DNA from: an uncultured Marivita sp.
Lineage (GTDB): Bacteria; Pseudomonadota; Alphaproteobacteria; Rhodobacterales; Rhodobacteraceae
Direction: 5' to 3'
DNA: 64,000 nucleotides
Assembly (NCBI RefSeq): GCF_947488135.1
Contig: NZ_CANKYW010000007.1
Location: 62,001 to 126,000, forward strand
Part shown: one piece after another, positions 14,760-63,445 of the stretch
How positions within the stretch are numbered: the stretch's first letter is position 1
Layout: each line of letters opens with the position of its first letter
Translations under genes and position numbers: made by a program
Notes under the pieces: model-generated
Seen by the model: only the letters and a program-made list of their open reading frames with translations
Told to the model about the DNA's origin: nothing
Database searches by the model: none

Positions 14760-15161
14760 TCAAACCATCGGTATTCCGTTTTCAACGCAGGAGGCGGTCA
14801 CGACTTCGGCGTCGATGGTCCGCACCCCACGGGGCAGCGCCGGCGAGATGGTGTAAACCGCATCTCCTCGCCAGAGGCCAGCCTCTTCGTATACATTTGT
14901 GCGCAAATGCCGCGCAAATCCGTAACCCCGAATGAGCGCGTATTGCGCCGCCGCACATTCGGCGTAGTCCTCCACGTCCGACGGCCCGCGCGCCCCGCGC
15001 ATCGCCACATCGAACTTGACCAGGTCGCCATCCAGCAATGTGGTCTGCACCCCTTCGTAATTGGGCGCGAACCGCGCGGGCGGCGTCGGCGCTGCCTCGC
15101 AGCCGGACAAACCGCCCACCATCGCAAGAGCGACAGATGTTATGACCGCCGGGTGGCGCAT
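14760..15161 (-). CDS. Small lipoprotein between nuoG and nuoH
   Basis: This 133-aa protein has a signal sequence ending in a lipobox LSGC with lipidated Cys21, so it is probably an outer- or inner-membrane lipoprotein facing the periplasm. The mature part has two further Cys pairs' worth of residues (one in DYAECAAA, one in TASCVENG) that could form a disulfide. The ATG at 15159-15161 has GGAG eight bases upstream; a GTG at 15170 overlapping the nuoG stop is an alternative. No function is recognised; it resembles other operon-embedded Rhodobacteraceae exported proteins only in position. Confidence 0.8.
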
Positions 15162-15166
15162 TCCGC

Positions 15167-17191
15167 TCACTCCGCCGCGATCTTGGTGTCCTTGCGGGCC
15201 TTCGCGCCCGCTGAAAGCTCTGCCATCAGGCTGCTGGCCCGGGCAATCGGATTGGTCAGCCAGAAATCCCGGATCGGGTTGCGGAAATCCGCGTCGCCCA
15301 GCTTGCCTTCGGCCTCAAGCTGCCATTCGTTCTCCGGCACCTGGTCGATTTGGGCGAGATGCGGGACATCGGCCACCAGTTTCTGACGCAACTGCGCAAG
15401 ACTGTCGAAGGGCAAAGTTGCCCCCAGTTCCGCAGACAGCGCGCGCAGGATGGCCCAGTTTTCCTTGGCCTCGCCGGGTGCGAAGCTGGCACGCAGCGCA
15501 AGTTGTGGACGCCCTTCGGTGTTGACGAAAAGCCCCTGCTCTTCCGTGTAAGCCGCCCCCGGAAGGATGATGTCGGCGCGGTGTGCGCCCCGGTCGCCGT
15601 GGCTGCCTTGGTAGATCACGAACGGACCATCGGCGATTTCCACCTCGTCCGCGCCGAGGTTGTAGATCACCTCTGCGCCGTCGATCGCCTTCTCCATGCC
15701 GCCCTCGGTGGTGCACCCGGCATCCATCGCGCCGACGCGACCCGCTGCGGTGTGCAGGACCAGAAGTTTGGAGCCTGAAATCTCGGCCATCTTTTGCGCT
15801 GCCGCCAGAACCGCCGCGCCATCCGCCTCGCGCAAGGCGCCCTGGCCGACGATGACGATGCTATTCTTGTCGTCGCGCGTCTCGTCCGACACGCCCTTGT
15901 CGATCATCGCCTGCAACGCGGCACGATCGGTGCCAGCGTGGTGATAATCATACGTCAAATCAACGGCTTCGCCGATCAGAGCGACATCGGCGCCCGCGGC
16001 CCACGCCTTGCGGATGCGGGCATTCAGCACCGGCGCTTCGTCGCGCGGGTTGGTGCCGATCAGCAGGATCATACCCGCCGTGTCGATCTCTTCGATGGTC
16101 GCCGTGCCGACATAGCCGGAGCGGTTGCCCGCAGGCAGCTTCGCCCAATCGGTGCGGCATTCGACCTGTCCACCCTGCCCCTCGATCAGAACTTTCAGCG
16201 CATAGGCTGCCTCGGTCGGGACCAAATCGCCGACGAGACCGGCGAGTTTCTTGCCCTTCATCGCCTCGGCGGTCTTGGTCAGCGCTTCGGGCCAGGTGGC
16301 CGGGCGCAACTTGCCGTTTTCGCGCACGTAAGGCTTGTCCAGGCGCTGCTTGCGCAGCCCGTCCCAGACAAAGCGCGTCTTGTCGGAAATCCATTCCTCG
16401 TTCACGCCGTCATGGTTGCGCGGCAAAAAGCGCATGACTTCCCGACCCTTGGTATCGACGCGGATGTTTGACCCAAGCGCATCCATCACGTCGATGGATT
16501 CGGTCTTGGTCAGCTCCCACGGGCGGGCGGTGAAGGCGTAGGGTTTCGACACCAAAGCGCCCACCGGGCACAGGTCGATGATGTTGCCCTGCATGTTGCT
16601 GTCGAGCGTTTCGCCCAGATAAGCGGTGATCTCGCTGTCTTCGCCCCGACCCGTCTGGCCCATCTGGGTGATGCCCGCGACCTCGGTCGTGAAGCGGACG
16701 CAACGGGTGCAGGAAATGCAGCGCGTCATATGGGTTTCGACCAGCGGGCCAAGGTCCAGATCCTCAACCGCGCGCTTGGGTTCGCGGAAGCGGCTGAAAT
16801 CCACACCATAGGCCATCGCCTGATCCTGAAGATCGCATTCGCCGCCCTGATCGCAAATGGGGCAATCGAGCGGGTGGTTGATGAGCAGGAACTCCATCAC
16901 CCCTTCGCGCGCCTTTTTCACCATGGGCGAGTTGGTCTTGACCACGGGCGGCTGGCCTTCCGGCCCCGGACGCAGATCCTTGACCTGCATCGCGCAGCTT
17001 GCCGCAGGTTTGGGCGGTCCGCCCACAACTTCGACAAGACACATCCGGCAATTGCCGGCGATGGACAGACGTTCATGGTAGCAGAACCGCGGCACCTCGA
17101 TCCCTGCCTGTTCACAGGCCTGAATCAGCGTCATCGCGCCGTCCACTTCAATCTCGTTTCCATCGATGTTGATCTTGCGCAAGTCAGACAT
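15167..17191 (-). CDS. nuoG: NADH-quinone oxidoreductase subunit G
   Basis: This 674-aa subunit carries most iron-sulfur clusters of the NADH arm. Visible ligands are Cys37/48/51/66 for the 2Fe-2S cluster N1b; His106 with Cys110/113/119 for N5; and Cys158/161/164 with Cys208 for N4. The additional N7 ligand set found in some bacteria is not visible. The C-terminal part is a molybdopterin-oxidoreductase-like fold without a cofactor. The start [11 protein letters not shown] (ATG 17189-17191) fits the family. A gap of 197 bases separates it from the preceding secreted-protein gene. Confidence 0.96.
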
Positions 17192-17388: not shown

Positions 17389-17784
17389 TTATCTCAGCAA
17401 CTGGCCGATTTCGGTTTGCGACTCGATCTGCCGTTGGCCGAAGCGGCACAGCGCGGGGATGTCATCCGCACGCACGCCGTTCTCCGCCAAAAATTGCTCG
17501 GCCTTGGCTTTCATCCGCGCCTTTTCCTCGCGAGAGGTGACATAGCGTTCCACCTCTTTTTCGGTGTAGCCCATATCCCGCGCCAAGGCTTTCAGGCGGT
17601 TCAGTTCGGAATAGGCCCGGATGAGACGCGCGTTGATGTTGTCGCAGGATTTGCGGATCGCATCGGCGATAGCGACGTTCATCAGGCCATTGTCGATGGC
17701 GGGCACATCCCGCAACGGTGTCTGGGCCGAGACCACGGAGCCCAGGGTCAGCGCAAGGATCAAGGCCGGGGTCAGCAATCGCAT
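17389..17784 (-). CDS. Secreted DUF5333-like protein
   Basis: The protein has 131 aa with an N-terminal signal peptide ending in VVSAQ, then a helical, charged mature domain with two Cys (SCDN and ALCRFG). It looks like the DUF5333 family that occurs in rhodobacterial nuo clusters; the family number is from memory and should be checked. The ATG at 17782-17784 follows GGATGAAAAG; an ATG six codons earlier is also possible. It lies between nuoF and nuoG downstream of an internal terminator. Predicted periplasmic; function unknown. Confidence 0.72.
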   Translation of the reverse strand: MRLLTPALILALTLGSVVSAQTPLRDVPAIDNGLMNVAIADAIRKSCDNINARLIRAYSELNRLKALARDMGYTEKEVERYVTSREEKARMKAKAEQFLAENGVRADDIPALCRFGQRQIESQTEIGQLLR

Positions 17785-17874
17785 CTTTTCATCCAATACC
17801 ATCCGCCCTCAATATGGTGACGGAGACCGCGGTTATTCAATATCACCCTTTACAACTTTTGGAGACCGGAGGCG

Positions 17875-18207
17875 TCAGGGTTCGATACAACGTCCCGACA
17901 GCACCACTTTGTTGTTGTCGATGGTCAAGGCGGTGTCGTCCGTGTCCGGTCCAACGGTCCAGGCGATATCCGAACTTCCCAGATAGGCGATGCAATGCTG
18001 AACCGCCTGATAGGCCGCCGCCCGCTTCGAGCCCTCGAGGCTCACCGAGGCCGGGCCACCAGTTGCAACGAACGCCGCCCTGTCACCGCGTTCGGACCGC
18101 AGATCGCCGCTAAACCTGGCACCTTCGTAGGTGACGGTTTCCAACTCGCCCCGGCCACATGCCGCGAGTGTCAGTATGATTGCGCCTGCTGCCCATGCCG
18201 ATTTCAT
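17875..18207 (-). CDS. Small lipoprotein between nuoF and nuoG
   Basis: The protein has 110 aa with a lipobox LAAC (Cys17) after a short hydrophobic signal. The mature domain has two Cys (HCIAYLG and SGRCIEP) that may pair. It starts at the ATG 18205-18207, with AAGGGG as a likely ribosome-binding site a few bases upstream. It is the first gene after the terminator-like hairpin at 18298-18322, so it may mark the start of a second transcription unit inside the nuo cluster. No recognised function. Confidence 0.75.
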   Translation of the reverse strand: MKSAWAAGAIILTLAACGRGELETVTYEGARFSGDLRSERGDRAAFVATGGPASVSLEGSKRAAAYQAVQHCIAYLGSSDIAWTVGPDTDDTALTIDNNKVVLSGRCIEP

Positions 18208-18297
18208 GGTGATACCCCTTCGAAAATGCTGGGCGCACATTGCGCTTAGACGCGATACGCTTGCAACCCCTGAGACACGTCCACCGCAATCGGCATG

Positions 18298-53136: not shown

Positions 53137-54150
53137 ATGGCGGCACGGAAATCCAAGGCCGAGGCGGCACGCGTATCCAATGTCTCGTCAGAAGAGCTGA
53201 CCGCCTATTACCGCGACATGCTCCTGATCCGCCGGTTCGAGGAAAAGGCGGGCCAGCTTTACGGCATGGGCCTGATCGGCGGCTTCTGTCACCTTTACAT
53301 CGGGCAGGAGGCCGTCGTTGTCGGGCTCGAGGCCGCCGCCGAGGACGGCGACAAGCGCATCACCTCCTACCGCGATCACGGCCATATGCTGGCATGCGGT
53401 ATGGATCCGAACGGCGTGATGGCCGAACTGACCGGGCGCGAGGGAGGCTATTCCAAGGGCAAGGGCGGCTCCATGCACATGTTCTCCAAGGAAAAGGATT
53501 TCTACGGCGGGCATGGCATCGTCGGCGCGCAGGTGCCGCTTGGCGCGGGTCTGGCCTTTGCCGACAAGTACAAGGGCACCGACCGCGTGACCTTTACCTA
53601 TTTCGGCGATGGCGCCGCCAACCAGGGCCAGGTTTACGAGACCTTCAATATGGCGGCGTTGTGGGCCCTGCCGGTGATTTTTGTCATCGAAAACAACCAA
53701 TACGCCATGGGCACGGCGCAGAAACGCTCCACCTCGACCCCCGATCTGCACACGCGTGGCGAGGCCTTCGGCATCCCCGGCGAGGCGGTGGACGGGATGG
53801 ATGTGCTGGCAGTCAAGGCGGCGGGCGACAAGGCCGTGGCACACTGCCGCTCCGGCAAGGGGCCCTATATCCTCGAAGTGAAAACCTACCGCTATCGCGG
53901 CCATTCCATGTCCGACCCGGCCAAGTACCGCACCCGCGAAGAGGTCCAGAAGATGCGCGAGGAACGCGACGCCATCGAACATGTCCGTGAGATGCTGCTC
54001 ACCGGCAAACACGCGACCGAAGACGACCTCAAGGCCATCGACAAGGAGATTAAGTCCATCGTCAACGCCAGCGCCGATTTCGCCCGCGAAAGCCCGGAAC
54101 CGAGCTTGGATGAGCTTTGGACGGATATCTATGCAGAGGAGGCCGTGTGA
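53137..54150 (+). CDS. pdhA: Pyruvate dehydrogenase E1 component, alpha subunit
   Basis: This 337-aa TPP enzyme subunit decarboxylates pyruvate as part of the alpha2beta2 E1. It has the TPP motif GDGAANQGQVYETFNMAALWALPVIFVIENN (GDG...NN), GGSMHMF and the phosphorylation-loop-like YRGHSMSDP. The start ATG at 53137 has GGGAGG just upstream. The stop TGA shares its A with the ATG of the small inserted gene; the same junction sequence recurs before pdhB. Confidence 0.96.
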   Translation: MAARKSKAEAARVSNVSSEELTAYYRDMLLIRRFEEKAGQLYGMGLIGGFCHLYIGQEAVVVGLEAAAEDGDKRITSYRDHGHMLACGMDPNGVMAELTGREGGYSKGKGGSMHMFSKEKDFYGGHGIVGAQVPLGAGLAFADKYKGTDRVTFTYFGDGAANQGQVYETFNMAALWALPVIFVIENNQYAMGTAQKRSTSTPDLHTRGEAFGIPGEAVDGMDVLAVKAAGDKAVAHCRSGKGPYILEVKTYRYRGHSMSDPAKYRTREEVQKMREERDAIEHVREMLLTGKHATEDDLKAIDKEIKSIVNASADFARESPEPSLDELWTDIYAEEAV

Positions 54151-54152
54151 TG
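54137..54152 (+). repeat. 16-bp direct repeat, left copy (pdhA end)
   Basis: AGGAGGCCGTGTGATG covers the last codons and stop of pdhA and the ATG of the small inserted gene. The identical 16 bases occur at 54472-54487, just before and over the pdhB ATG. The repeat is 335 bp apart and brackets the AT-richer segment, so it marks the edges of an insertion that duplicated the pdhA/pdhB junction. Confidence 0.85.
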
Positions 54153-54473
54153 CGGACAGTTTTGACTGTCGCTTTTTGCGCTCTCGGCAACACAGTTGTA
54201 GCAGAAATGCCTAGGTATGACGTGGAAAGTCATTGTACCTCTGTGGCCTCATTCAGCGGCGACTACAGCGCATCCCTTTTCAACGGATGCATTGACATGG
54301 AGCAATCGGCTTATAATGCCCTGAAACAGAATTGGGAGAGACTGCCAGAGACGATGCAGTCTCATTGCAATTCGGTTGCCTCATTCAGCGGAGCAGGTTC
54401 TTACTCACTTCTCGAAGGCTGCGTTCGAATGGAATTGGAAGCAAGCAATTCGAGCAAAACCTTTAAGTATTAG
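54150..54473 (+). CDS. Small secreted repeat protein inserted between pdhA and pdhB
   Basis: The protein has 107 aa with a hydrophobic N-terminal signal (cleavage near TVVAE). It contains an internal tandem repeat, residues 27-51 and 71-95, each with SHCxSVASFSG...GCxxME and a Cys pair at the same spacing (Cys29-x17-Cys47, Cys73-x17-Cys91). GC is about 48 % by hand count versus about 61 % just downstream. The TAG stop lies within the Shine-Dalgarno sequence of pdhB. Flanked by 16-bp direct repeats. Periplasmic by prediction; function unknown. Confidence 0.8.
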
Positions 54474-54487
54474 GAGGCCGTGTGATG
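54472..54487 (+). repeat. 16-bp direct repeat, right copy (pdhB start)
   Basis: Identical to 54137-54152. It provides AGGAGG seven bases before the pdhB ATG at 54485, so pdhB keeps its own translation start after the insertion. Confidence 0.85.
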
Positions 54488-55867
54488 GCGACCGAAGTTC
54501 TCATGCCCGCCCTCTCGCCCACCATGGAAGAAGGCACGCTGGCCAAATGGCTGGTCAAGGAAGGCGACACCGTTTCGGCGGGTGACATCATGGCCGAGAT
54601 CGAGACCGACAAGGCGACGATGGAGTTCGAAGCCGTGGACGAGGGCATCGTCGGCAAGATCCTTGTCGCGGAAGGCACCGAAGGCGTGCGGGTGAACACC
54701 CCCATCGCGGTGCTGGTCGAGGATGGCGAAAGCGTGGAAGACGCCGAATCGACCGCCCCGCCGCAGCAGCTTGTGGCCAAGGACAAGGCGCAAAGCTCGG
54801 AAGACCAGCCTGCCGCCGGCATGGACCACCCCGACCCCGCCCGCGTGATCGCCAAGGCCGAAGCGCCGTGGCCTGAAGGCACCAAGACCAAGCAGACGAC
54901 AGTGCGCGAGGCGCTCCGCGATGCGATGGCCGAGGAAATGCGCCGCGACGAGGATGTGTTCCTCATGGGTGAGGAAGTCGGCGAATACCAGGGCGCCTAC
55001 AAGATCAGCCAGGGTCTGCTGGACGAATTCGGCGCGCGCCGGGTGATGGACACGCCGATCACCGAACACGGCTTCACCGGCATTGCGGTGGGTGCCGCCT
55101 TTGGCGGTTTGCGCCCGATCGTCGAATTCATGACGTTCAACTTCGCCATGCAAGCCATTGACCAGATTATCAATTCCGCCGCCAAGACGCTCTACATGTC
55201 AGGCGGTCAGATGGGCGCACCAATGGTGTTCCGGGGTCCGAACGGCGCCGCCGCCCGCGTCGGTGCGCAGCACTCACAGGATTACGCGGCGTGGTACGCG
55301 CATATTCCGGGGCTGAAGGTGGTGATGCCCTACTCGGCCTCCGACGCCAAGGGACTGCTGAAGACCGCGATCCGCGATCCGAACCCGGTGATCTTCCTGG
55401 AGAACGAAATCCTCTATGGCAAAACCTTCGAGGTGCCCGAGCTCGAGGATTACACGGTGCCCTTCGGCAAGGCCCGCATCTGGCGCGAGGGCGCGGATGT
55501 CACCATCGTGAGCTTCGGCATCGGCATGACCTACGCGATGGACGCCGCCGAAAAGCTCGCTGGCGAAGGGATCGAGGCCGAGGTGATCGACCTGCGCACC
55601 CTGCGTCCGATGGATTACGACACGGTGATCGCGTCCGTCCAGAAGACCAACCGCTGCATCACGGTCGAGGAAGGTTTTCCCGTTGGCGCCATCGGCAACC
55701 ATCTGTCGGCGGTGATCATGGAGCGCGCGTTCGACTATCTGGACGCGCCGGTGCTGAACCTGACGGGCAAGGACGTACCGATGCCCTATGCCGCAAACCT
55801 CGAAAAACACGCGCTGGTGACAACCGCCGAGGTGGTCGAGGCCGCGAAAAAGGTCTGCTACAAATGA
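54485..55867 (+). CDS. pdhB: Pyruvate dehydrogenase E1 beta subunit with N-terminal lipoyl domain
   Basis: The protein has 460 aa, longer than a plain E1 beta (about 330) because of an N-terminal lipoyl domain (residues 1-77, [11 protein letters not shown] with the lipoyl Lys) and an acidic linker (about 78-130). The transketolase-like part has [31 protein letters not shown] and the C-terminal domain with [14 protein letters not shown]. Lipoylated E1 beta is a known alphaproteobacterial feature. A GTG one codon upstream is an alternative start. Its stop overlaps the next small gene (ATGA). Confidence 0.96.
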
Positions 55868-56118
55868 CCGACGCCCTGACCGTCCGCACCCGCGACGTCG
55901 CGCGCGAGGCCTACAGGGTGGAGACCCCGGCGGGGGCTGCCTTCGTGCCGGAATGCCTGATGGACAGGTTTCCGAACGAGGCCCGCCCGTCGCACCAGAC
56001 GGCCTATGAATGGATCGGCGCACATCGGCGTCAGATCACTAGGGCCGTCGAAGCCCTCAACGCCGGCAAGACGCCGAAAGCCCCCTATGACCTCATCACC
56101 CTGATCGAGGAGACCTGA
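55864..56118 (+). CDS. Small protein between pdhB and pdhC
   Basis: This 84-aa soluble protein without signal or membrane segment is locked between pdhB (four-base ATGA overlap) and pdhC (TGACATG). It contains [19 protein letters not shown] and a helical [19 protein letters not shown] is like the neighbours, so it is an old part of the operon, unlike the 54150 gene. I do not recognise the family; a vague DUF1488-like layout was noted but not relied on. It could be an accessory factor of the pyruvate dehydrogenase complex, by position only. Confidence 0.72.
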
Positions 56119-56119
56119 C

Positions 56120-57424
56120 ATGCCCATCGAGATACTCATGCCCGCCCTGTCCCCCACGATGGAGGAAGGCACGCTTGCGAAATGGATGGTCAAGGAAGGC
56201 GACACGGTGTCCTCTGGCGACGTCATCGCAGAGATCGAAACCGACAAGGCGACGATGGAATTCGAAGCCGTCGATGAAGGCGTGATCGGCAGACTTCTGG
56301 TCGACGAGGGCACGGCGGATGTGAAGGTGAACACACCCATCGCCATGCTGCTGGAAGACGGCGAAAGCGCCGACGACCTTGGCGCGCCGTCCGCGCCGAA
56401 AGAAGAACCGGCCTCGTCTCATGTCGCTCCTGCCGAGCCGTCGGAGGCGACAGCTCCCGCGCAAGGCTACGGTCGCGGCGGGGCACCAAAAACCGAAACC
56501 GCCTCTGGTGACCGCATCTTCGCCTCCCCCCTCGCCCGCAGGATCGCGGCCGACAAGGGCTTGGACCTGAGCCAGATAAAGGGCTCCGGCCCGCGCGGCC
56601 GCATCGTGAAGGCGGACGTGGAGACTGCATCGCCGCAGTCCTCCGCGCCGATATCCGCGCCAGCCGAATCCGCACCTGCCTCGGCCGGAAAACCGGTCGA
56701 TGCCAGCGCCATTGCCAAGATGTACGAGGACCGCGCCTATACCGAAATCCCGCTCGACGGTATGCGCAAGACCATCGCCGCGCGGCTCACCGAGGCGAAA
56801 CAGACCATCCCGCATTTCTACCTGCGCCGGTCCGTGACCCTCGACCCGCTTCTGGCCTTCCGGTCACAACTCAACACGCAGCTTGAAAAGCGCGGCGTGA
56901 AGCTGTCGGTCAACGATTTCATCATCAAGGCCTGCGCGCTGGCCCTGCAACAGGTCCCTGCGGCCAATGCCGTCTGGGCAGGCGACCGCATCCTGCAACT
57001 GGAGCCGTCGGATGTCGCCGTCGCCGTCGCCATCGAAGGAGGGCTGTTCACGCCAGTCCTGAAGGACGCACACCAGAAATCCCTTTCGGCCCTGTCGGCA
57101 GAGATGAAAGACCTTGCCACCCGCGCCCGCGACCGCAAACTGGCACCCAACGAATATCAGGGCGGGAGCTTTGCCATCTCCAACCTCGGCATGTTCGGGA
57201 TCGAGAATTTCGACGCTGTCATCAACCCGCCCCACGGCGCGATCTTGGCCGTGGGCGCAGGGATGAAGAAACCGGTGGTCGCAGAAGACGGCAGCGTCAC
57301 AGTCGCCACGGTGATGTCGATGACCCTTTCGGTGGATCACCGCGTGATCGACGGCGCGCTGGGGGCAGAGCTGCTGGAAGCCATCGTGGACAACCTCGAA
57401 AATCCAATGGCCATGCTCGCCTGA
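56120..57424 (+). CDS. pdhC: Pyruvate dehydrogenase E2, dihydrolipoyllysine acetyltransferase
   Basis: This 434-aa E2 core enzyme transfers acetyl groups to CoA. Residues 1-77 form one lipoyl domain ([12 protein letters not shown]); about 130-170 is the E1/E3-binding domain (SPLARRIAADKGLDLSQIKGSGPRGRIVKADV); about 205-434 is the catalytic domain with the C-terminal DHRVIDGALGAELL active-site motif. The order E1alpha-E1beta-E2 without lpdA nearby is seen; E3 may be encoded elsewhere. Confidence 0.96.
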   Translation: MPIEILMPALSPTMEEGTLAKWMVKEGDTVSSGDVIAEIETDKATMEFEAVDEGVIGRLLVDEGTADVKVNTPIAMLLEDGESADDLGAPSAPKEEPASSHVAPAEPSEATAPAQGYGRGGAPKTETASGDRIFASPLARRIAADKGLDLSQIKGSGPRGRIVKADVETASPQSSAPISAPAESAPASAGKPVDASAIAKMYEDRAYTEIPLDGMRKTIAARLTEAKQTIPHFYLRRSVTLDPLLAFRSQLNTQLEKRGVKLSVNDFIIKACALALQQVPAANAVWAGDRILQLEPSDVAVAVAIEGGLFTPVLKDAHQKSLSALSAEMKDLATRARDRKLAPNEYQGGSFAISNLGMFGIENFDAVINPPHGAILAVGAGMKKPVVAEDGSVTVATVMSMTLSVDHRVIDGALGAELLEAIVDNLENPMAMLA

Positions 57425-58768: not shown

Positions 58769-59046
58769 GACTGCCGCTCCAACAACGCCGAAAGCACACA
58801 GAGCCATGCCTCAAGACCGACCTGCGTCTGGAACGAGATGTGACCGTGCCGGTCGTATTGCAAGGCCGCGGCCATGAGGCTCCCATCTCCGTAAACCGGA
58901 TGTGCGGCATGATGCGTAGCACGGTACCGCGCCGCCCGTTCGGCATCGGCGATCAAGCCGACCATGACCGCGTGCCGCCGCGACGGAACAACGCTGGCCA
59001 CCACGGACACGGCGGCCAGCACATCGTTGTAGATGACCGGCGTCAC
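58678..59046 (-). CDS. Small GTA-cluster-linked protein (GTG start)
   Basis: The protein has 122 aa. GTG start at 59046-59044 overlaps the stop of the GTA tail gene by three bases (GTGA). It contains AERAARYRATHHAAHPVYGDGSLMAAA, like short proteins found after the last GTA gene in Rhodobacteraceae (DUF7742-type, from memory). The C-terminal ~30 residues lie opposite the DksA-like coding region and look low in information, so the true end may be earlier in evolution but the frame continues. Confidence 0.65.
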   Translation of the reverse strand: MTPVIYNDVLAAVSVVASVVPSRRHAVMVGLIADAERAARYRATHHAAHPVYGDGSLMAAALQYDRHGHISFQTQVGLEAWLCVLSALLERQSQPEAQLMQRRAEGSNSSRLTAMSSPHSSQ

Positions 59047-62000
59047 GCGGACCACGCGATCCGCGCCCACGGTCCGGGTCCGAACCGGTCCGAAACCTGC
59101 GCCACCTCGAAGATCGCCGCGCCGGTGAAGCCGTCTTCGGCCTGCATGGCCGCCGTATAGGTCCAACCCGGCTGCATCACCTCCACGTCTCGCAAGACGC
59201 TGCCGCCGGACGTGACACGCACGCGATACGCCTCGCGATCCTCGCCCAGCGGAATGTCCGGCAAGTCCCACCCATCCGCTTCAATACGTGCGCGACGAAT
59301 CCAGGTCAGACGCATATCGGGTCCGGTTGCCCTCAGGTTCAGGTGCACTGGGCTGAGAGGCCGCAATCCGTTGCCCGCAAAAGCCTGAACCACATGGCGA
59401 TACGCCGCGTGATCATACGGCTTGTCCGCCGGTCCGATCCGGTAATGCCGCTCTTGCCCGCGCAAGGAAACTGGCATCGCGATCTGCCGGGGCGTGCCGT
59501 CCAAAAGGACGAAATACGCGCCCGCCGCCAATGTTGCCGGACTCAACGCATCGGTCCCGACCTGCCCGCGCAGCAAGTGGCTAAGACGCCAGACGCCGAC
59601 GTCAATCAATTCGGCACTCTTGAACTGGATCACTTCCCACGCATCCGGATCACCCGTTCCGATTGCGGCAAGGTTCGCACCGCCCAGAAGCCCCGCTTCA
59701 CTCACCGAGGACAGGCTGCCGGTGGTCAAGGAAACCTCCAACTGCGTGCCCAGATCGACCAGGCCGCTCGGAGCACGGTTCACCGCGGTCAGGGTGACTC
59801 CGACCGTAGAGGCCACCCCAATCAATGAATTGAGCCCATACCCCGTATCCTCCGCCGCGTCGTAGACTGCCACGTCTCCCGGCCATAGATCGGATGTCAC
59901 CGCGAGATGCGGCGCATGGGGTACTTCGTCACCCCGGATGAGCGGCAAATCGAGGAACAACGGCAACACCGGACCGCTTGCGGTAAAGCGGCGCGCGGGC
60001 GTCGGATCGTCCGGGAAATCCGCCGGATGATAGACCTGCGGCTCGATCCGGACCGCTTCGATCAGCTGATGGGTCGTTTGCTCGACCCGGTCGATACGCA
60101 CGGTCATGTCGCCCGCCTCGCCTGGCAATCGGACGACATCGCCCGCACCCAACGCGTGCTGCGACAGTGGAAGCGCGAACCGCACCCCGTCCCGTGCCAC
60201 ACGCGCCTCGCTGAGCCAGCGTTCGACGGCCTGCCGCCCCTCGGGCCGTGTCAACAGGATCGGCACTTCGCTCTCCGCCACCGCATGTGTGGCCTCGTCC
60301 GGCAGCACGGATTCCTCGGCGATATTGCGATAATCCCCGTCGGATTCGACAAAGTTCAACCGGACCCGCCCCGACATCTCGGCCTCGGAGCTGCGCGATT
60401 GCGCGACGTCCGACCCCAGATCGTCATGCAAGGCAAGCTGCGACATGTCCAGATCGACCACCCGCGCCGCGTTGCGGTTGCGGAACACGAGGACGCCGTC
60501 CCGTTCGATCGCGTCGAACCCGTAGGCGATCATCAAGGGCTGCAACGCGCGCCGCGCATCCGCCACATCTGGCGCAAGATAGCCGCGTACAAAGCCGTAC
60601 AGCGCGCTGACATCATAGTCCCGCAGACCCGAACGCTCGCAAATCTCGGCCACGACCGACGCCAATGTGCGGCCCGACACCCGTCCATTGATCCAATGTC
60701 CGCGCCGGTAGTTCGGCCCGTCAGACCACATTTCGTCCACGTTCGGAAACCACGGGTAGGGTCGCGCGTCCCAGGCCCAGACGTAGACCCGCGCCATGTC
60801 GATCATCGGCTCGCCGTAGACGTCAGACACCGGATTATGTTCCGGATCGCCCCAGTATCCCAGCATCGCGCGCAGGTACTGATGCTGGATCAATTCGTCC
60901 CGCAACCCGTTGGAATACTCAGGCAGAGTGCTTTCCGAGCTTTTGGGATCGAGAAACTTGTTCGGCTCATTGGTGGCCTTGTCGACGGCGGCACAGCCGA
61001 TCTCCGTGAACCAGATCGGCTTGCTTTCGGGCACCCACGCGGTTGGCATGGCTTCCCGGACACCGCCGACCCGATCGTGATGCGGTTGCGACCACCAGTT
61101 GCGAATATCCTTGTAGCGATAGACCCACGGCTCACCGTAGGCGCCATCCGTGATCGCCGCGCGCTGCTGAAGGTCCCGCGCCTCTTGCGACGGGTAGTAC
61201 CAGTCGTACCCCTCACCACCCGCCACATTGGCGCGCAGATAGTCGAGATTGTAGATCGACCCCCATTCCGCATCGGCGTGATCCGCACCGTCCCGCCAGT
61301 CGGACAGGCGCATGTAATTGTCGATGCCGATGAAATCGATATTCGGATCGGCCCAAAGCGGATCGAGGTGAAAATAGACGTCCCCGCTGCCATCCTGCGG
61401 ATGATAGCCGAAATACTCGGACCAGTCGGCGGCGTAGCCGATCTTCACATCCGGTCCGAGGATCGCCCGACAATCCGCCGCCAGGCTCCGCAACGCCTCG
61501 ACCGCCGGGAATCCCGACACGCCCCGCAACTGCGTCAGGCTGCGCATTTCCGACCCGATGCAGAAGGCCGTCACGCCTCCCGCAAGCGCACAAAGATGCG
61601 CCTGGTGCAGGATGAACCGGCGATAGCCCCAATCCTGCGGGATCTCAGTGTCCTCGCCATCGTCATCACCCGGCAAATCATTGGTTTCGGCTGCAAACCG
61701 GATCACCCCGTCTTCCACGGAAAAATCCCCGATCTGCGCCGTTCCGAAAAACGCGGCAATCTGATCGTCCACGGCAGCTGTGCCGGACGGATCCCCAACC
61801 TGCCCCGGCGCCACGCTGGCCGTGATCCGCCCGCGCCAAGGCAGTTTCGGCTGACCGATCTCCCCCGTCCACGGATTAGGAAGCCCGTTGCCCGGCATCT
61901 GTTCCATCAGGATGAACGGGTAGTAAAGAACCTCCAACCCCTTATCCGTCATGTCCCGGATGGCCTGCACCACCGACGCGTCACAGGGTGTTCCTCCATA

Positions 62001-62996
62001 CACCGGACGCCCGTCCTCGACCGGCACCAAACCAGCATCGGCGCGCTCCAATCCGCTGACCGTCCACGGCATGTCGGCGCTGTCACGCTGGGTCTGCTCC
62101 ACCTTCGGCTGGATCACACACTCCCCACAGCGCAGATCGCTGCCGAACCAGCTCACCACCAGCGACGCCGACCCGCAATCCGGCACCTCGTCCTGCAAAT
62201 GCTTGAGAGACGTCACGAAATCGGGCCGGTCCGACGGGCTGTTGACGTTTATGACGTCCGACTTGCCCGCACCGCCATCCAGCGCAACCGGCTCGGTCGC
62301 CAGCGCATACTCACCCGTCCCGGGGATCATCGCCACCCCGCGGATATTGAACGGCACGTCCTCGGGATCGTCCTGCACCGGCCGCGTCACTTCGAAGGAA
62401 AACTGCGGCACGCGGTTGCCGAACCGCTCCAGATCAAGGTCCTCAAAGACGACATACGCCGTGCCGCGATAGGCGGGCACCATGCCCACACCCTCAACAG
62501 CTTCCATCTTCGGATCCGGCTGTTGATCGCGCGATCCGGGATACATCCGCATCGTCACGTCATAGATCGAGATCTCGGCCCCATCCGCCCAGATCCGGTT
62601 CACGCTGGTGATCTCACCTTCGCAAAGTGCAACCGCGAGGCTGACCGAATAGCTATATTCCTTGATCGTCGGCTGCTGCGACGGCCCCTTTCCGCCACCG
62701 CCCGATTTCGACACCTTTTCCTTGAACTGCGTGGCCCAGATGATGTGTCCGCCGACCCGCATCCGTCCGTAGACCTGCGCGATCGGCTGGCCTTCCCCGG
62801 CGGTGCTCAATCGCAGCCGGTCCAGCCTCCCGGTCTCGATGGTGCGCCCGCCGGCCCCCAGTATACGCTGATCGATCGCACGACCCAGAGTAGCCCCCGC
62901 AAACCGCCCCACCGCCGTCATCGACAGCCCGAGCACCGATCCGCCAAGACTGCTGCCCAGCGCCGCGCCCGCAGCCGAAAGAACCAGTGTCGCCAT
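59043..62996 (-). CDS. Gene transfer agent tail/host-specificity protein (orfg15-like)
   Basis: This 1317-aa homologue of the R. capsulatus GTA 'megatron' protein encoded by orfg15 is a baseplate/tail-tip protein with a TIM-barrel. Visible parts are an N-terminal Gly/Ala-rich membrane-like segment (MATLVLSAAGAALGSSLGG), the phage-tail segment with YGRMRVGGHIIW, a central TIM-barrel region (IGIDNYMRLSDWRD, PIWFTEIGCAAVD with an acidic catalytic-like Glu), and C-terminal tail domains. It starts five bases after the NlpC/P60 gene. Chromosomal GTA genes package random DNA; whether this cluster is active cannot be told. Confidence 0.9.
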   Translation of the reverse strand: MATLVLSAAGAALGSSLGGSVLGLSMTAVGRFAGATLGRAIDQRILGAGGRTIETGRLDRLRLSTAGEGQPIAQVYGRMRVGGHIIWATQFKEKVSKSGGGGKGPSQQPTIKEYSYSVSLAVALCEGEITSVNRIWADGAEISIYDVTMRMYPGSRDQQPDPKMEAVEGVGMVPAYRGTAYVVFEDLDLERFGNRVPQFSFEVTRPVQDDPEDVPFNIRGVAMIPGTGEYALATEPVALDGGAGKSDVINVNSPSDRPDFVTSLKHLQDEVPDCGSASLVVSWFGSDLRCGECVIQPKVEQTQRDSADMPWTVSGLERADAGLVPVEDGRPVYGGTPCDASVVQAIRDMTDKGLEVLYYPFILMEQMPGNGLPNPWTGEIGQPKLPWRGRITASVAPGQVGDPSGTAAVDDQIAAFFGTAQIGDFSVEDGVIRFAAETNDLPGDDDGEDTEIPQDWGYRRFILHQAHLCALAGGVTAFCIGSEMRSLTQLRGVSGFPAVEALRSLAADCRAILGPDVKIGYAADWSEYFGYHPQDGSGDVYFHLDPLWADPNIDFIGIDNYMRLSDWRDGADHADAEWGSIYNLDYLRANVAGGEGYDWYYPSQEARDLQQRAAITDGAYGEPWVYRYKDIRNWWSQPHHDRVGGVREAMPTAWVPESKPIWFTEIGCAAVDKATNEPNKFLDPKSSESTLPEYSNGLRDELIQHQYLRAMLGYWGDPEHNPVSDVYGEPMIDMARVYVWAWDARPYPWFPNVDEMWSDGPNYRRGHWINGRVSGRTLASVVAEICERSGLRDYDVSALYGFVRGYLAPDVADARRALQPLMIAYGFDAIERDGVLVFRNRNAARVVDLDMSQLALHDDLGSDVAQSRSSEAEMSGRVRLNFVESDGDYRNIAEESVLPDEATHAVAESEVPILLTRPEGRQAVERWLSEARVARDGVRFALPLSQHALGAGDVVRLPGEAGDMTVRIDRVEQTTHQLIEAVRIEPQVYHPADFPDDPTPARRFTASGPVLPLFLDLPLIRGDEVPHAPHLAVTSDLWPGDVAVYDAAEDTGYGLNSLIGVASTVGVTLTAVNRAPSGLVDLGTQLEVSLTTGSLSSVSEAGLLGGANLAAIGTGDPDAWEVIQFKSAELIDVGVWRLSHLLRGQVGTDALSPATLAAGAYFVLLDGTPRQIAMPVSLRGQERHYRIGPADKPYDHAAYRHVVQAFAGNGLRPLSPVHLNLRATGPDMRLTWIRRARIEADGWDLPDIPLGEDREAYRVRVTSGGSVLRDVEVMQPGWTYTAAMQAEDGFTGAAIFEVAQVSDRFGPGPWARIAWSA

Positions 62997-63001
62997 TCCT
63001 C

Positions 63002-63445
63002 TTATCCTTCCTGAAGGTCCGCGAACGCAAACCGCGCCACGATACGCCGCTGCCACGGCGCGCTGAGCGAGGTCTCAAGAACCCCGTTCCCCGAATACGC
63101 GTGAACAAACCGCGCCAACGCGCCGATCCGCGTCTGTATCCCAAGATGTTTCGCGATCCCGCGATCCCGCATCCGGAACAGGATCACGTCGCCCTCGCTC
63201 TCGTCATCGACGTGTTTGGCCGCCATCCGTTGAGACAAAGCCTGCCAGAGAACCTCGTCCCCCTGCGGCTCACCCCAATCCTGCGTGTAGCTCGGAACGG
63301 ACCCTGGCTCGCAGCCGTAAAGCTCGCGCCAGACCCCGCGCAGCAGGCCAAGACAATCAGCCCCGGCGCCGCGCAGGCTCGCCTGATGCACATAGGGCGT
63401 CCCGATCCATCCACGCGCCGCGGCCACGATCTCCAGCCGCGTCAT
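63002..63445 (-). CDS. GTA NlpC/P60-family peptidase (orfg14-like)
   Basis: This 147-aa cell-wall peptidase domain probably opens peptidoglycan during GTA delivery. Catalytic triad segments: GADCLGLLRG (Cys), GIAKHLGIQT or RFVHAYSGN (His). The ATG at 63443-63445 overlaps the stop of the upstream gene by four bases. Same order as RcGTA orfg13-orfg14-orfg15. Confidence 0.9.
   Translation of the reverse strand: MTRLEIVAAARGWIGTPYVHQASLRGAGADCLGLLRGVWRELYGCEPGSVPSYTQDWGEPQGDEVLWQALSQRMAAKHVDDESEGDVILFRMRDRGIAKHLGIQTRIGALARFVHAYSGNGVLETSLSAPWQRRIVARFAFADLQEG

Follow-up and report, generated by a model that had tools for sequence, protein, structure and literature searches.

The gain of genes within operons and hotspots of horizontal transfer are topics with which Price et al. 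2006 is reportedly associated, and together with prophage accessory genes they are the background to the small gene described here, which encodes a protein of 107 aa and lies in a pyruvate dehydrogenase operon within a 64,000-nucleotide stretch of Marivita DNA (the window). Judged by the section of PMC6316719 that defines them, phage morons (prophage accessory genes) resemble the 107-aa family, which is small, sporadic and found on phage contigs, between or beside repressor and tail genes, and the window gene shares with them a foreign composition within a host operon. Unlike the morons of that section, the window copy sits in a housekeeping operon, outside any phage, and a scan of 53950-54650 gave 0 promoter-like sites, so that no promoter of its own was found. 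PMC8585504 describes bstA as a defence gene that prophages carry downstream of cI. Several copies of the 107-aa family in prophages likewise stand directly beside a CI-like repressor, but the 107-aa protein is a predicted secreted protein with two Cys modules, and the family has no PADLOC defence-family match at E 0.01. As outlined in PMC5635113, horizontal-transfer hotspots combine conserved core flanks with fast-changing content. The same is seen at our locus, with the difference that here a single gene-sized slot, running from start to stop, lies in one operon and mostly holds one gene at once. The features of the operon are listed below in window coordinates.

53137-54150, plus strand: pdhA, pyruvate dehydrogenase E1 alpha, 337 aa (Pfam E1_dh, 1.4e-105)
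54137-54152, plus strand: first copy of AGGAGGCCGTGTGATG, holding the small-gene SD, the pdhA stop and the small-gene start (exact match)
54150-54473, plus strand: gene for the 107-aa predicted secreted protein of an undescribed family, with two Cys-x17-Cys helical-hairpin modules (ORF, family alignment, AlphaFold2)
54472-54487, plus strand: second copy of AGGAGGCCGTGTGATG, holding the pdhB SD and start (exact match)
54485-55867, plus strand: pdhB, lipoyl-fused E1 beta, 460 aa (Pfam Biotin_lipoyl, Transket_pyr, Transketolase_C)
55864-56118, plus strand: 84-aa ORF in the pdhB-pdhC junction (sequence, gap lengths)
56120-57424, plus strand: pdhC, dihydrolipoamide acetyltransferase, 434 aa (ORF list; homologue at the expected place in relatives)

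The name pdhC follows from the lipoyl N-terminus and the place in the operon rather than from a family scan, and a Pfam scan of the 84-aa ORF gave no match at E 0.01. The insert ORF runs from the ATG at 54150 to the TAG at 54471-54473. The last codons of pdhA contain the first copy of the repeat and its TGA stop overlaps the insert ATG, while the second copy opens with the AG of the insert's TAG, an AG common to AGGAGG. Because of the TGA/ATG overlap on the left and the TAG/AGGAGG sharing on the right, the ORF is bounded exactly by both repeat copies. Its GC content is 0.481, compared with 0.624 for pdhA and 0.633 for pdhB, and its N-terminus is signal-peptide-like as judged by eye, in agreement with the low-GC signal-peptide ORF proposed by the first-pass annotation. 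That annotation had also held the operon to be unbroken, and gene order and start/stop overlap are indeed kept. Other inserts at this junction have a GC content of 0.52-0.61, likewise below that of pdhB. A hairpin that resembles a terminator, at the insert's start (GACAGTTTTGACTGTC, 54155-54170, T-rich thereafter), was discarded as a candidate, since 0.8 such sites are expected by chance. Elsewhere in the window, a gene-transfer-agent (GTA) tail gene (59043-63056, minus strand; Pfam GTA_TIM 5.6e-150, Rcc01698_C) lies 1.6 kb from pdhC and adjoins a serine acetyltransferase gene. Small ORFs, some secreted-looking, are similarly wedged between the nuo genes of another core operon (14760-15170, 17389-17802 and 17875-18240, minus strand); one is a DUF5333 protein, and Pfam gave no hit to the remaining two at E 0.001.

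The 16-bp direct repeats that had been reported 335 bp apart, at the pdhA end and at the pdhB ribosome-binding site (RBS) and start, are both exact. In a search of the window for AGGAGGCCGTGTGATG with 3 mismatches allowed, these two copies are the only matches; this loose count proves little by itself, because 15/100 shuffles give two or more such matches. We also compared the positions of the exact 16-mer with those of pdhA in 17 genomes of the genus. It occurs once in 10 of the others, always at the pdhA end, is absent from 6, and is present twice only in the window's genome (G000); nowhere else in the 17 genomes does it appear. The likeness of the two regions stretches to 21 nt, of which 19 are identical (90%). 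A shared exact repeat of more than 8 nt between the two junctions is found in 1 of 22 pdhA-pdhB inserts, that of the window, and the remaining 21 share 5-8 nt, which is within the cross-genome background given by unrelated pairs. Could chance, or selection for a good RBS, have made the junctions alike? Any start would be expected to have AGGAGG and ATG, and the other inserts have an SD of their own. Between AGGAGG and ATG, however, stands CCGTGTG, 7 free bases whose chance agreement is 4^-7 = 6e-5. CCGTGTG is plain spacer in the second copy, since the insert already stops at TAG; it is not demanded by RBS selection, which alone therefore does not explain the repeat. With the other inserts sharing so little, we find a coincidental or RBS-driven likeness scarcely credible.

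An exact direct repeat that equals the empty site, in a family linked to phages, might also be read as attL/attR or as the target-site duplication of a phage, a satellite or an unknown element now reduced to one gene. The 335 bp between the repeats hold one gene-size ORF, which has no Pfam match above cut-off and no PHROG match at E 0.01, and we saw no transposase, integrase, phage gene or tRNA there. A repeat search of 53900-54700 (seed 8, minimum 10) found no inverted pair at the insert ends. A 16-bp duplication is present as for a target site, yet it is bounded by SD and ATG and unseen in the 21 other inserts. The repeats fall on the start and the stop of the ORF itself, an arrangement not expected from a shrunken element, and the largest pdhA-pdhB insert in our survey is 1.7 kb and contains no prophage. 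An origin of this kind is in our judgement highly improbable.

The genus offers a direct view of the junction before and after insertion. pdhA was found in 16 of the 17 genomes at 88-100% identity, G002 having paralogues only. The first-pass annotation had suggested looking for the uninterrupted junction in relatives, and 8 of the 16 readable junctions are empty (G003, G007, G009, G011, G013, G014, G015, G016). The 107-aa gene occupies the site in G000 only (0/15 other readable genomes), which makes it a gain in this genome and not a gene carried by all relatives. The 8 filled junctions hold at least 4 unrelated families: the 107-aa gene, a 74-75-aa coiled-coil-like ORF (G001, G012 and G008, with another version in G010), secreted-looking 181-aa ORFs (G004 and G005, 29% identical) and a glyoxalase-like ORF (G006; Pfam Glyoxalase 1.4e-8). 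At the empty junction the two genes overlap tightly at TGATG and the SD lies within pdhA; carriers of the coiled-coil gene have the same left end. On a tree of the 16 genomes built from pdhA, pdhB and pdhC, which is poorly resolved around G000, the five slot states take at least 7 changes, against a minimum of 4, and cluster no better than randomly permuted ones, of which 92/200 gave a count as low. As controls, four tight junctions picked non-randomly from the window were read in the same genomes. Inserts were found at 0/17 for nuoM-nuoN, 0/17 for glmU-glmS, 1/15 for HMGL-ECH (a 174-aa ORF in G015) and 3/17 for MCCA-GST (a second GST-like gene in G009 and G015, and a spacer of about 190 bp in G002). 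Other operon junctions therefore change too, but less often (4/66 versus 8/16; Fisher p 1.2e-4, kinship ignored). The pdhA-pdhB junction is a fast turnover slot, with the same core flanks and different content in relatives.

Slot variation extends beyond the genus. In a survey of 80 other Rhodobacteraceae genera, 77 junctions were readable (G030, G046 and G075 being unlisted and unread). These comprise 48 that were fetched and 29 that were counted as short gaps because they matched as one in-frame stretch. The distance from pdhA stop to pdhB start exceeds 100 bp in 14/77 of the genera, and 11 of these 14 long gaps contain a plausible gene, with none convincing in G064, G072 and G074. The genes are glyoxalase-like (G041, G069, G088, G152, G155; 68-77% identical between genera), coiled-coil (G036, G081), secreted (G018, G041 and, with three, G066) or membrane-like (G027, G079, G155). 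In most short junctions the pdhA stop is followed by a spacer of 10-26 bp that carries an SD of its own. The second variable site of the operon is the pdhB-pdhC junction, where 26 of 45 readable loci have a 9-16 bp spacer and 11/45 readable family loci have a relative of the 84-aa ORF. In the particular case of G008, a homologue of the 107-aa gene stands where the window has the 84-aa ORF.

The 107-aa protein belongs to an undescribed family, predicted to be secreted, that is common to phages and a core-metabolism operon. No significant match to the family was found in Pfam, NCBIfam, PHROGs, PADLOC or PDB. All four Cys (C29, C47, C73, C91) are invariant in an alignment of 23 members, and an AlphaFold2 model (pLDDT 86.7, pTM 0.73) shows one Cys in each of its four helices, which suggests a fold of two stapled hairpins. 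At the DNA level, a 30-nt repeat (83%; 54230-54259 and 54362-54391) is a trace of the two modules.

The gene is rare. The family was detected in 6/394 Rhodobacteraceae genomes, plus G008, and in 4 of these 7 carriers from whole-genome searches the gene lies within the pdh operon, at one of two junctions: pdhA-pdhB in G000 and pdhB-pdhC in G008, G240 and G288. A p value for the 4/7 was dropped because the three pdhB-pdhC copies belong to a single clade and another four carriers, not known to have it in the operon (Ruegeria, Salipiger, a Rhodobacterales MAG and a partial Paracoccus match), bring the wider figure to 4/11. The G240 copy (L169) is frameshifted, by decay or assembly error. In its own genome the window gene is single-copy, the other match being at E 0.07, 33% identical and interrupted by a stop. 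No donor was found among its relatives, the best of which are about 50% identical. The 19 loci from a genome-contig search span Alpha- and Gammaproteobacteria.

The gene tree bears on two further explanations. The first is that the gene was already in the operon at pdhB-pdhC, as it is in G008, G240 and G288, and shifted to the next junction upstream. The concentration of Rhodobacteraceae carriers in the pdh operon speaks for such a move, as does the placement of the window gene next to the pdhB-pdhC clade, at a non-significant 85/29. Against this, identity between the window gene and the pdhB-pdhC copies is only about 45-49%, the branch of the window gene is long (1.14), and the window's own pdhB-pdhC junction keeps its usual 84-aa gene intact; we consider the move unlikely. 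The window gene and the three pdhB-pdhC copies fall into a wider group with Halomonadaceae copies (93/89). The second explanation is long membership of the operon, by inheritance with many losses, the repeat being a late product of gene conversion. Since the three pdhB-pdhC copies form a clade across genera (97/92), the association with that junction may indeed be old, and some slot genes, such as the glyoxalase-like ones with their identity between genera, look old as well. Old membership at pdhA-pdhB is nonetheless hard to reconcile with a gene found there in 1/16 readable genus genomes and in 0/22 other long-gap or genus inserts inspected, and the family is present in just 1/2 genomes in the genus of G288 and 1/7 in that of G240. 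We judge long inheritance improbable. The best reading is of a sporadic accessory gene whose family is also found on phages.

Relatives of the 107-aa protein are encoded at 9 IMG/VR phage-contig loci, some of whose sequences recur among the genome loci. The family as a whole has one property of phage morons, members inside phage genomes, though INPHARED phages gave no match. Nine neighbour proteins from 7 loci, chosen for their phage-like look and hence not blind, were scanned against PHROGs, and 8 of the 9 matched phage families: 3 repressors (CI-like; L151, L154, L097), 4 tail proteins (L150, L155 twice, L157) and 1 integrase (L082). One guess at the role of the protein, in phages and hosts alike, would be an envelope function such as superinfection exclusion; it is made by analogy, because several prophage copies directly adjoin a CI-like repressor, the position of bstA, and we hold it to be doubtful. 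In the Halomonas/Salinicola (pro)phage loci L151, L152, L154, L094 and L087, differing large genes follow the 107-aa homologue. L151 has an AAA ATPase resembling defence ATPases downstream of the repressor and the homologue, and L154 and L094 have NA37 nucleoid proteins downstream of the homologue. The repressor-adjacent region in these loci is a possible defence or accessory hotspot.

The reading that we favour, as somewhat probable, is that a phage-associated accessory gene was captured into a permissive pdh slot through an illegitimate recombination event whose limits are the SD and the start. The joining may have been a microhomology-guided template switch or an unequal joining. One switch at the start (TGATG) and a return at the SD (AGGAGG) would have copied the 16 bp between them twice, and the outcome would be an exact ORF with an SD 7 nt before each start and with stop/start coupling kept. 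With SD and coupling kept, pdhB expression should survive, and selection can therefore let the insert stay. The 107-aa gene would then be co-transcribed with pdh and translated, and its product probably exported and folded as two disulphide-stapled helical hairpins. The empty junction of the genus may itself have arisen when the coiled-coil gene was deleted between the ATGGCG at its start and that of pdhB.

This route of joining, as read from the repeat, is modelled on a single event, 21/22 slot inserts and 3/3 pdhB-pdhC copies being free of such a repeat. The first-pass annotation had proposed that the gene moves by copying an RBS junction without a transposase, and that it would recur at other operon junctions with matching duplications. 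The lack of a transposase and of an inverted repeat agrees with the former, but a duplication in only 1/22 inserts does not. The gene does recur, at pdhB-pdhC in three genomes, but with a long repeat in 0/3, these copies sharing 5-6 nt. Phages and a permissive slot account for the spread of the family better than a junction that copies itself would. A more far-reaching possibility, which we regard as fairly improbable, is that tight junctions of housekeeping operons serve as transposase-free exchange slots through their SD-stop-start homology. An ORF joined in would leave an SD-to-start duplication, and one joined out an exact start-to-start deletion. Bacteria would use the pdh slots to express phage-borne envelope genes strongly and constantly, and the slot genes could be disseminated by gene transfer agents with pdh flanks.

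The slot, together with the family's repeated presence in the pdh operon, is the wider and better supported finding than the scar, which is real and informative but single. The way in which single genes enter operons and leave them functional has mostly been deduced from end states. In this case one genus offers an empty site, an occupied site and a scar that looks fresh, at a junction whose state has changed at least 7 times among 16 genomes, and a secreted family common to phages and a core-metabolism operon has a function that is directly testable.
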